A program made the translations under genes and the position numbers. The notes under the pieces were generated by a model, which worked only from the letters and a program-made list of their open reading frames with translations, did not search any database and had not been told where the DNA came from. Of a DNA stretch of 64,000 nt, positions 9,001 through 11,298 are shown piece by piece. Numbering within the stretch: position 1 is the stretch's first letter; each line of letters begins with the position of its first letter. Source of the stretch: Cheilinus undulatus (Eukaryota; Chordata; Actinopteri; Labriformes; Labridae); assembly GCF_018320785.1 (NCBI RefSeq), contig NC_054877.1, positions 38,276,151-38,340,150 on the forward strand, read 5' to 3'.

Positions 9001-11298
9001 TTTTCATCAGAGTTTTTATCAACAAAGATCAGTTTTGACAAGTCTTAGTACCGTCTTCCTCATGGGAAAATGGTAGTCAGCAAATATCTTTAGTCATAGT
9101 TTTAGTCGACAAAAGTAACTGATTCTTTTACAGGAGGTACATACAGATGTTTCTGTGCCATAATGCAGTCCTGCTGACACTCTGGATTTGAACATACAGT
9201 ACAAAAAGCATCGATAAAGGCATAAGGTTGGTGCCTATAGTGTGTGAATACACATTACATTACAGTAGAGGCAACTACACACATTACTTCACGCATGTAC
9301 AAACACATACAGTGCTGTTCTGCTTCACAAGCTCAGATGTTTTAAATTGCTAACCCAATGCCCCATTACGCCTATTACTACCTCTGATAGCAAGTTAGGA
9401 GCAGAACGACCCCCATGCCTTTGTGCATTACACATTGCACATGAGGTGTAACAAGGGCATAAATATTCTTCCTTTAAGTGACAGTCTGTAAGGGCCTATA
9501 GTTTTTGGGGGGGAGGGTCACTGAATGAAATACAACAAATAAAGAATACAGACAATATGGTCACTACTGATGTGAGTGAAAGTGCAATAGCACAACTTTT
9601 GTAACCTAGCAACAGCTCGCACTGGTGAGACGCATTCTGGAATTGAAGTAGGTGCTGTCAGCACAAAGAAGTAAAAATCCTTATGTGGACACAGGCCTTA
9701 ATCCTAGAACCCACAATGACTCATAAAATCCACAGTCCCTGTTGTCTGTGTAAATGTTAACCAAAGTTAAGCTGCAGATCTTTTAAGGAAAAAAAATATT
9801 TTACTGTGGAATTAAATGTAGCTCTCCACTGTGGCTCATAAAAAAGAGAGGAGAGTTTTATATGAATGGTTCCCCTTGTATTTGTCTGATAGGACTTTTT
9901 TCTGTTGGCACCATCAAAAGTAACGGTTTCCTCTTGTCTGCTCAGAGGAAATGCAGTGCACCCCAGGGCATTATCCAAGGTCCTGCTCTTTTGAGAGGCA
10001 TCTGGCTGCAGACCTCTGTGGTGGGGTCTTTTGGGCTCATCTGTTGCAGACCTCTACAGTGGGGTGACCTTGACTGTGGGGCGGGAATTGATGTACAGTT
10101 AGTTTGTGGTGTGTTATTTTTAACCCAACCCTAACCTTTAGGGTTAATGTGCCTAACCCCAAATGTACGGAAAATGTGCATCATTCTGATTCGGGCTTGG
10201 GTAATGTACATCACAGATGCTCTTGGTTCTTTTCTCTATCTTGTGGAGTTGTCACGATACCAAACTTTTATATTTGATAGGATACTAGTGAAAATCAAAT
10301 GATACTACTAAGTGTTTTGGTACCATGGCAACAAGTGACACCCAAAACTAGAAATGTTCCAGTACCATTTTTTGCTTCCTGATACCAATTCTGATACTAG
10401 AGTGTTAGGTGTAAGCCAATACTGAGTACGAATCTGATACCAGTATAAACTTTCTAAGTAAGCTGAATAAGAGTTGCACTATTGAACACTTCAACCACCA
10501 TCTAACCCACTAAACAAACTCACAAACACAAAGATGCACTCACCCTCTGGTTCTTGTAGTAAAACGGATCGATGTCCTCCAGTGGCACTCCGATGAGTTC
10601 TGTAGGGATGTCACCAAAGATTCGTGGCAACTGCTTGCCTGCCTCCAGGTCGGCCCTGGGTTTAGGTGGCTCTGCGTTCCTATGAGAGTCATGGCAACAA
10701 GGTTATTATAGTGAAAAGTAGCCTGTTTGAATATGTTTTAAAATGTATGATGTTCACTTAGCCCTGACATATACAGTGCTTAACAAATTTATTAGACCAA
10801 CTGTGATATTTGTCTCAAAGACCATCCAGCATCATGAAGCGCTTTAATGTGGACTCTTTCATTTTTCAGTGAGCTCTCCACGTTTTACCATTTTGAACAG
10901 GAATGAGGGATTTCAAACTGAATTCACCCAAATTTGAGCCAGCTCACTGGGCTTCTCAGAAAAGTCAGAAATGAATCAAGCATAACATTCAATATATATA
11001 TAAATAAACTAACACTAAAACTAATAAAAAAGTGAAGCATTTTTGCAAAACAGAAATTGCCAAACTAACAAACCAGCAGTAAAAACAAATTAAAACTAAA
11101 CTGAAATTGAAAACAGAAAGTGAAAATGAAATACGAAGAAAAACTAATGAAAAAAATCCCAAACTATCATAACCTTGAATGGCAATCCTTGGCATTCTTG
11201 GCCTGCTCCTCCGCAATCCGCTGCTCCAGCGCAGCCATGGATTCGCGAGTGAACCGCCGCAAGCCATCAGGACCCGTTGGTAACAGCATGGCTGCCAT
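23..11298 (-). CDS. scn5a-like: Voltage-gated sodium channel alpha subunit, SCN5A-group, N-terminal 332 codons (partial)
   Basis: Pore-forming alpha subunit of a plasma-membrane voltage-gated Na+ channel. Eight minus-strand coding exons: 11174-11298, 10544-10679, 7167-7285, 5145-5234, 2674-2802, 837-928, 451-693, 23-86. They join in frame (998 bp, 332 codons plus 2 nt). They cover the cytoplasmic N-terminus, domain I S1-S5 and the start of the S5-pore loop. Exon sizes 119, 90, 129, 92 and 64 bp equal those I recall for mammalian SCN genes. Diagnostic segments include [14 protein letters not shown], the S4 helix [14 protein letters not shown], and [15 protein letters not shown]. The rest of the gene lies beyond position 1. 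Assignment to the SCN5A group rests on adjacency to wdr48, gorasp1 and csrnp1, as at human SCN11A-WDR48; sequence alone would not choose the paralog. The gene carries a transposon-derived extra intron and an AT-AC intron, both described separately. Confidence 0.95.
451..693 (-). CDS. scn5a-like: scn5a-like coding exon 7 (S4-S5 linker, S5, turret)
   Basis: 243 bp. Encodes [19 protein letters not shown], the S5 helix ([20 protein letters not shown]) and a divergent extracellular turret ([20 protein letters not shown].. through FLSNE). N-S-S, N-A-S and N-R-T give potential N-glycosylation sites. Acceptor CATTAAG, donor GTCAGC. The turret differs in length from mammalian paralogs, as expected for this loop. 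Confidence 0.94.
837..928 (-). CDS. scn5a-like: scn5a-like coding exon 6 (domain I S3-S4 voltage sensor)
   Basis: 92 bp. Encodes [18 protein letters not shown] and [12 protein letters not shown]. All four S4 positive charges (R, R, R, K at every third residue) are present. The S3-S4 linker carries Asp (FVDLGN), the state typical of the adult-type copy of the mutually exclusive exon pair in several mammalian SCN genes. I found no second copy of this exon in the flanking introns. Confidence 0.95.
929..2673. other. scn5a-like intron between coding exons 5 and 6: hAT-type fragment only
   Basis: Contains a degenerate fragment near 1589-1740 of the 'tggttctccactggtc..' repeat type, also seen near 11612 and 22092. 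I see no duplicate of the S3-S4 exon on either strand. Confidence 0.5.
2674..2802 (-). CDS. scn5a-like: scn5a-like coding exon 5 (domain I S2-S3)
   Basis: 129 bp. Encodes [20 protein letters not shown] (S2, with the acidic gating counter-charge Glu), the loop [14 protein letters not shown] and the start of S3 (LDFSVIVMA). Acceptor TTTTCCAG, donor GTAAGT. Confidence 0.95.
3001..3024. repeat. (TA)n microsatellite
   Basis: Alternating TA dinucleotides with one interruption, inside the scn5a-like intron between coding exons 4 and 5. Confidence 0.85.
3030..3900. repeat. Unclassified dispersed repeat, copy 1 (internally duplicated)
   Basis: Shares blocks such as 'ttgctcttgttttaataaagaaatgtg' (3320-3347) and 'ctgataca/aaactgc' with segments at 17560-17950 and 40430-40850. 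A second partial copy of the same block starts near 3505, so the copy looks internally duplicated. No terminal repeats or coding domain were identified. Confidence 0.5.
4008..4525. mobile_element. hAT-like non-autonomous element (CAGGGGTGTC ends)
   Basis: Terminal inverted repeats CAGGGGTGTC at 4008-4017 and GACACCCCTG at 4516-4525. The 8 bp flanks are tcttaagc (left) and tcttacag (right), a decayed target duplication. No transposase remains. Confidence 0.8.
5145..5234 (-). CDS. scn5a-like: scn5a-like coding exon 4 (domain I S1)
   Basis: 90 bp. Encodes the S1 helix ([19 protein letters not shown]) and the S1-S2 loop [11 protein letters not shown]. The acceptor is CCAC at 5238-5235. A perfect U12 branch-site motif, TTTTCCTTAAC, ends about a dozen bases upstream. 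The donor is an ordinary GTAAGT. Confidence 0.94.
5235..7166 (-). other. scn5a-like: U12-type AT-AC intron of scn5a-like
   Basis: The intron begins ATATCCTTT at 7166 and ends AC at 5236-5235, with branch-site TTCCTTAAC at about 5255-5247. Vertebrate sodium channel genes are known to keep a minor-spliceosome AT-AC intron at this exact place (SCN4A intron 2), so this is a conserved feature. The intron also contains a 39 bp minisatellite near 6459-6559. I see nothing else coding in it. Confidence 0.92.
6459..6559. repeat. 39 bp minisatellite
   Basis: Two near-identical 39 bp units (6459-6497 and 6498-6536) built on attgctcagt..gctcagtgtattgctgc, plus a partial third unit. It lies within the AT-AC intron. 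Confidence 0.85.
7167..7285 (-). CDS. scn5a-like: scn5a-like coding exon 3 (pre-S1), U12 AT-AC donor
   Basis: 119 bp. Begins ACT TTT ATA ([14 protein letters not shown]) after TTTGCAG. It ends within the Ser codon of VLVHS and is followed by ATATCCTTTTT, the canonical U12-type AT-AC 5' splice site, rather than GT. Confidence 0.93.
8171..8490 (-). mobile_element. LINE ORF2 C-terminal fragment
   Basis: A 103-codon minus-strand open frame with C-x2-C-x9-H-x4-C spacing ([19 protein letters not shown]). This is typical of the C-terminal segment of fish non-LTR retrotransposon proteins (..[20 protein letters not shown]..). It is 5' truncated and lies in the intron between coding exons 2 and 3. Confidence 0.7.
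8560..9140. repeat. Degenerate dispersed repeat with 'agttttagtcga' blocks
   Basis: Repeated motifs agtccagttttagtcgat (near 8671) and agttttagtcgacaaaagta (near 9098) flank AT-rich sequence. It resembles abundant fish repeats, but I cannot place its ends or class. Confidence 0.4.
9141..10543. other. Rest of the scn5a-like intron between coding exons 2 and 3: no gene seen
   Basis: Contains short open frames near 9757-10134 without recognisable domains, and a 'gatac..' rich degenerate segment around 10250-10450 that looks repeat-derived. Confidence 0.4.
10544..10679 (-). CDS. scn5a-like: scn5a-like coding exon 2 (rest of the ancestral first exon)
   Basis: Encodes [18 protein letters not shown] and then [20 protein letters not shown]. 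This is the conserved N-terminal cytoplasmic motif that in mammalian SCN genes lies in the same exon as the start codon. Acceptor CTCTCATAG/G at 10681-10680; donor GTGAGT at 10543. Together with exon 1 it gives 261 bp, exactly 87 codons, ending in phase 0 like the mammalian first coding exon. Confidence 0.92.
10698..11177 (-). mobile_element. Short-TIR DNA transposon (hAT-like by 8 bp TSD) forming the first coding intron of scn5a-like
   Basis: 480 bp non-autonomous element. The termini read CAAGGTTATTATAGT on the plus strand at the left end and CAAGGTTATGATAGT on the minus strand at the right end (14/15 identical). It is flanked by catggcaa (10690-10697) and aatggcaa (11178-11185), an 8 bp target duplication with one mismatch. 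The interior is rich in AAACTAA/TTAGTTT blocks and has no coding potential. A diverged relative sits at 12201-13548. Assignment to hAT is inferred from the 8 bp duplication only. Confidence 0.85.

Follow-up and report, generated by a model that had tools for sequence, protein, structure and literature searches.

The locus described here raises the question of whether a DNA transposon that landed in a coding exon of a vertebrate ion-channel gene now behaves as a spliceosomal intron. It lies in a 64,000-nucleotide (nt) stretch of the Cheilinus undulatus genome (hereafter the window; contig 13 (C13), C13:38276151-38340150), the minus strand of which carries the 5' part of a voltage-gated sodium channel (Nav) gene. 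From sequence comparison, searching the 1.17-Gb genome in its 46 contigs, we consider it probable that a hAT-like element made a new spliceosomal intron in an exon of this scn5-type gene, with the donor taken from the end of the element and the acceptor from the exon. The mechanism of an intron gain is usually erased; here the ends, the duplication and a candidate donor and acceptor remain legible in an ion-channel gene.

An element within a sodium channel exon

The inserted element is 480 bp long (10698..11177) and carries 15-bp terminal inverted repeats (TIRs; CAAGGTTATTATAGT / CAAGGTTATGATAGT) that agree at 14 of 15 positions. It is flanked by an 8-bp target-site duplication (TSD), with one copy, CATGGCAA, at 10690..10697 within the predicted intron and the other, AATGGCAA, at 11178..11185 within exon 1a. 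The two copies are identical at 7/8 positions, and by simple arithmetic the chance of a match of at least 7/8 exactly at the element edge is (1+24)/65536, or ~4e-4. Reading from the exon into the element, a stop is soon met. Removal of the element and one copy of the duplication leaves an empty-site exon of 89 codons, as stated in a first-pass annotation of this stretch; it aligns without gaps to human Nav1.2 and to the spliced paralog on contig 19 (C19), and its protein matches Nav channels with a best E-value of 1.6e-26. The exon was presumably uninterrupted prior to the insertion.

The following sequence of events is proposed. A non-autonomous hAT-like transposon would have inserted into the hypervariable N-terminal linker encoded by the exon, leaving an 8-bp target duplication. 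On the sense strand the end of the element (CAAG|GTTATG) would provide a weak 5' splice site, while prior exon sequence ending 10 nt past the duplication would serve as the 3' splice site (CTCTCATAG|G). Splicing at these two sites would take out 494 nt (10680..11173, minus strand, phase 2; donor AAG|GTTATG) and join predicted exon 1a to predicted exon 1b. Exon 1a (11174..11298, minus strand), obtained by splice enumeration and translation, comprises the ATG, 41 codons and 2 nt, and its final 4 nt (CAAG) are part of the transposon end; exon 1b (10544..10679, minus strand) terminates at the donor AGG|GTGAGT. The frame would be restored at the cost of two codons relative to the empty site (DCHDSHRN becomes DCHSRN). 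The coordinates, inverted ends, duplications, stop, splice pair 11174/10679 and 87-codon spliced product given earlier for this locus were all recomputed and agree.

The extent and ends first assigned to the element stood up, but its build proved to be composite, with a truncated Tc1/mariner-like piece inside and the left 15 bp fused to the remainder by an internal deletion. A family search was made with the right outer part alone (10994..11177) as the query, and the best 40 of 2348 first-look candidates (ours and 39 others) were scored, which bears out the claim that the family is dispersed. The right outer part, from the end of which the candidate donor on the gene's sense strand derives, is 82-86% identical to the 39 other scored copies. 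The left outer part (10698..10769) is the 15-bp TIR joined to family interior; from query position 7-15 on, this interior sequence is 88-94% identical to 39 other scored copies, and the right half is also present in 18 of the 19 loci read that match it.

Between the outer parts lies the nested fragment (10770..10992), 94-96% identical to 39 other places. It has one TIR, TACAGTGC, adjoining a TA dinucleotide, together with the beginning of a decayed transposase helix-turn-helix (HTH) region: a 22-residue piece matches HTH_38 at E 1.9e-4, below the curated cut-off, and a 45-residue piece in another frame matched no family. A second TIR is found in 6/7 loci read. The TIR at a TA and the HTH transposase start point to a Tc1/mariner-like origin, and since five of the seven loci read run beyond its end point, the piece in our copy is truncated on the right.

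It is highly improbable that the interrupted exon is an assembly or allele artefact. Only a single assembled copy exists, and either half of the exon was matched at one place, on C13, with no sign of a second haplotype; the flanks, duplications and TIRs are nevertheless coherent, and there is no second place matching the whole composite among the matches listed.

Candidate splice sites

Candidate sites were scored with splice matrices and against the U1 sequence, and 14 local donors were used for comparison: eight from WDR48 (11 of 15 junctions were called, and three with negative donor or acceptor scores were dropped) and six from the channel gene. An open frame is retained with 13 GT-AG pairs, of which 11174/10679 scores highest. 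Just one alternative with a positive donor score retains the downstream part; this next-best pair was rejected, as it loses 10 codons compared with the empty exon. A branch-point-like TTCAC lies upstream of the acceptor, with its A at -33. The acceptor score of 6.0 is low within the 13 local acceptors (5.5-12.5), and 7.8% of AGs score equally well or better.

Several observations weigh against splicing at this pair. The donor AAG|GTTATG has a matrix score of 3.1, below all 14 local donors (4.7-10.9), and its U1 duplex is calculated at -4.1 kcal/mol, compared with -4.2 to -11.6 kcal/mol for local donors; a terminus first described as donor-like is thus weakly so. Of the 7157 GT dinucleotides across the window, 14.5% reach at least this score, and both predicted sites are outscored from within the intron itself, the donor by four GTs (5.6, 5.0, 4.8 and 3.7) and the acceptor by three AGs (7.9, 7.4 and 7.3). 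When insertions were simulated in five exons of the gene (1420 position/orientation combinations of this element), 75 (5.3%) yielded an equally good frame-restoring pair; with looser thresholds a pair arose in 420 (29.6%), with a donor score of at least 5 in none. Given these rates, the frame-restoring pair is suggestive rather than decisive. Finally, an intron also interrupts the C19 paralog, only a few nucleotides away from this site, and the question of an ancestral intron therefore arises.

Of what a spliceosomal intron would be expected to display, GT...AG ends and a reading frame that stays open when they are joined are present; donor strength equal to that of local sites, a usual though not obligatory feature, is absent. 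Weak 5' splice sites do exist in real introns, so the weak donor lowers the probability of a spliceosomal intron without excluding it. The intron gain by insertion put forward in the first-pass annotation therefore needs amending as regards donor strength, whereas an exonic TIR insertion with a donor from the terminus and an acceptor from the exon is still the best reading, in view of the family, the channel exons and the top-scoring pair.

State of the host gene and age of the insertion

Using human Nav segments as tblastn queries, exons for all four domains of the channel were found over 81 kb, covering ~980 query residues in sum, with the inter-domain linkers and C-terminus outside this coverage. 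The selectivity filter contexts D, E, K and A are kept (TQDYW, CGEW, TFKGW and TSAGWD), and a PDB search with 424 residues from the first two domains aligned them closely with human Nav channels. Four stops occur in the stretches read, three directly past listed donors and one just before ATFKGW, at the presumed exon start; no disabling change was found in the channel exons recovered. With assumed rates, a neutral divergence of 3.3-8.3% would be expected to bring ~4-11 nonsense changes per 1000 codons, along with 8-21 frameshifts. Because the channel exons lack such changes, the insertion is probably cut from the RNA. Their lack from the exons found is the main argument that the insertion is tolerated, with splicing as the simplest route, but it would not hold for a very recent insertion.

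Compared with the family consensus, the right outer part differs at 17/170 sites (Kimura two-parameter distance 0.108) and the left part at 2/58, which suggests that the element is probably not brand new. Among the 29 copies selected for their resemblance to our right part, one is at least as diverged as that part; among the 18 selected via the left piece, 13 are. The Tc1 piece differs from its consensus at 7/220 sites, exceeding each of the seven copies read. A minimum age based on this piece as a later, in-place insertion was considered and dropped, as one other place, C17:3714482, has a family copy joined to a Tc1 piece at this very TA.

That locus (L075, 88%) is a hAT-like family copy with the Tc1 piece at the identical dinucleotide, a coincidence that a hot spot, mere chance or a composite of greater age could explain. 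Its Tc1 piece extends beyond our truncation point, and by eye the two have no clear private changes in common. It may represent an independent Tc1 hit, or it may be a sign that the composite predates the exon insertion. Since the composite may have moved as one unit, no firm minimum age can be given.

This leaves room for another outcome, in which the insertion disables the exon or the allele, so that the protein is lost or another 5' exon splices into the acceptor at 10679, bypassing exon 1a. The weak donor and the stronger decoy sites would fit such an outcome, as would a very recent insertion, for which the lack of a firm minimum age leaves scope. We regard it as unlikely, because the channel exons found carry no disabling change where the assumed rates predict several, and because exon 1a encodes an intact Nav N-terminus.

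Paralogous genes and an intron on contig 19

A search with the exon-1 protein returned nine matches, in which our gene and the C19 paralog are each split into two pieces, and five other Nav genes (on C11, C24, C15, C3 and C20) have the segment in one exon. The C19 intron (L051:1624-1779, corresponding to C19:32124963-32125118) is absent from these five. It is 156 nt long (GAG|GTACAC...TCTCAG|GAC), in phase 0 after codon 41, and contains stops. Its sequence is unlike the element and has no second copy in the genome among the matches listed; an origin of the C19 intron as a transposon was rejected on the latter ground. In the gap-free 89-codon alignment, the donors of the C13 and C19 introns are 2 nt apart and the acceptors 8 nt, and the phases are 2 and 0, respectively.

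The two contigs look like duplicated chromosomes, as the closest of four non-self csrnp1 matches is on C19 (70%), some 20 Mb from the C19 channel gene. When identity is taken across the entire first exon, C19 (55%, in a range of 51-57%) does not rank as the closest paralog; after the motif DLEAGK it does, with 25/31 residues compared with 18-22 for the others. Up to DLEAGK the empty exon has 53 codons, the same as C19 and C15, and the other four genes vary from 50 to 59.

These relationships allow for an intron older than the C13/C19 duplication. The transposon would then have landed at its edge, the old intron would have been mostly deleted, and the acceptor CTCTCATAG would be what survives of its 3' splice site instead of recruited exon sequence. 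The near-coincident C19 intron and the apparent chromosome duplication, with C19 closest after DLEAGK, speak for such a history, and one gain would be simpler than two, intron gain being described as rare in vertebrates (PMC12357937). The differing phases and the offset of both splice sites speak against it. Exon-like sequence also flanks the duplication on both sides, leaving no space for a prior intron unless further deletions occurred, and the length of the empty exon to DLEAGK equals that of C19 and C15, albeit among genes of which the other four vary; the C19 intron itself has no listed second copy. Phase, exon length and the exonic duplication thus make an ancestral intron quite unlikely, and independent origins, or an older intron lost before the insertion, are favoured over a shared intron.

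A bolder proposition, which we put forward tentatively and hold, taken as a whole, to be less likely than not, is that introns arose independently in both scn5-type duplicates, within 2-8 nt of each other in a shared hypervariable linker, with a hAT end giving rise to one of the two, and that this abundant family now and then supplies introns in a vertebrate genome. With the marks of the insertion still legible and a separate intron lying almost at this position in a paralog, both the mechanism and the question of a preferred site are directly testable.

The dispersed family

Twenty-nine other loci of the family were cut out. Both TIRs and an 8-bp duplication (0-3 mismatches, 10 exact) were present in 26, and a recognisable left end was not found in the other three. 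Twenty-three of these 26 measure 527-597 bp, and CAAGG stands at the left end in 24/26 and at the right end in 23/26. When 49 loci were pooled, our own among them, a duplication with at most two mismatches was present in 34. Over the 28 loci with at most one mismatch, again including ours, position 2 of the duplication is T in 17/28 and position 7 is A in 17/28. Short TIRs starting with YARNG and the target preference nTnnnnAn are signatures of hAT elements; the 8-bp duplications, CAAGG ends and base preferences are consistent with a hAT-like, non-autonomous family, although our own duplication matches just one of the two nTnnnnAn positions. For hAT dimerisation-domain places in the genome, the best 150 of 765 candidates were scored.

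Among the longest 12 open reading frames (ORFs) across joined flanks, which were inspected by eye, our copy alone was recognised as lying in a host coding exon. Two family copies in opposite orientation, L018 (C7:4220096) and L019 (C7:4171710), are ~48 kb apart; since neither the target duplication nor the joined-flank ORF differs between them, they seemingly lie within an inverted segmental duplication.

A stretch upstream of the exon (12201..13548, plus strand), previously taken for a second copy of the element, is indeed related (~180 bp at 70% identity) but only as a distant relative. Its ends each have two mismatches to the TIR pattern, and it lacks a good duplication (ATTGTGAG / TGTCTGAC).

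Comparison with known systems

Maize Ds, a plant hAT element, reportedly gave rise to an intron (Giroux 1994, cited in PMC3151243), whereas ours is a vertebrate hAT-like element; Huff et al. 2016 is said to deal with Introners. Our literature search returned, among the matches listed, no account of this channel intron, no teleost scn5 intron maps and, judged by title and abstract start, no hAT-made vertebrate intron. Six element-end strings were also sought; three papers contain one of them, none of which is, by title, on transposons.

The comparisons that follow draw on excerpts of the papers cited. Transposon-made introns are already known, including in a teleost gene, slc26a2 of notothenioid fish, where the inverted-repeat element NTE-1 lies in an exon with direct repeats; the gt-ag sits in the repeats, and NTE-2 later lengthened the intron as an element within an element (PMC12357937). 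NTE-1 starts with tgt, ends with aca and has 4-nt repeats, whereas our element has CAAGG... TIRs, 8-nt repeats and a candidate acceptor past the repeat; the notothenioid introns are common to five species, and ours comes from one genome (PMC12357937).

Introners likewise have TSDs and/or TIRs, bring one of the two splice sites with them and recruit the second, and sometimes add or remove codons, but their families make many introns per genome, compared with our one case (PMC9860276). Our copy resembles them in being a TIR/TSD insertion whose candidate splice sites coincide with its ends or lie close by. Across animals and land plants, Introners are described in just two animal groups, with no pattern of vertebrate gain in that excerpt (PMC9860276). 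In teleost mtnr1b duplicates, intron-gain sites are conserved across independent events, as perhaps in C13 and C19; unlike in our case, no transposon sequence is identified in the excerpt of that account (PMC7541902). Novel introns in fish receptors have also been described (PMC3151243).

Gene identity and other features of the window

The neighbours of the channel gene are WDR48, located by tblastn with a human sequence and showing WD40 repeats, and a CSRNP1-like gene (CSRNP_N, E 5.8e-37), a neighbourhood that we take to be that of the human SCN5A/10A/11A region. The scn5-type label follows from these neighbours; by sequence alone, the closest PDB matches of both the exon-1 protein and domains I-II are Nav1.2 and Nav1.3. 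The exon after 1b begins with TFIVLNKGK at 7285 and ends in VLVHS. Directly after VLVHS, a U12-type AT-AC 5' splice site, ATATCCTT, is seen at 7159-7166 (minus strand), presumably that of the AT-AC intron known at this position in SCN genes. Nav domains I-IV, this intron and the two neighbours together indicate a teleost scn5-type Nav gene.

Elsewhere in the window, a 179-residue ORF at 27263-27802, taken by eye for a reverse-transcriptase fragment of a long interspersed nuclear element, matched no Pfam family at E 0.01 and was discarded. Among viral contigs, 18 stretches fit a pattern and none was confirmed. Two decayed Tc1/mariner-like transposase fragments are present in the window, one at 53332-53688 with a weak HTH_SB match (E 0.0011, below the cut-off) and one at 63124-63522 that matches DDE_3 (E 8e-9).

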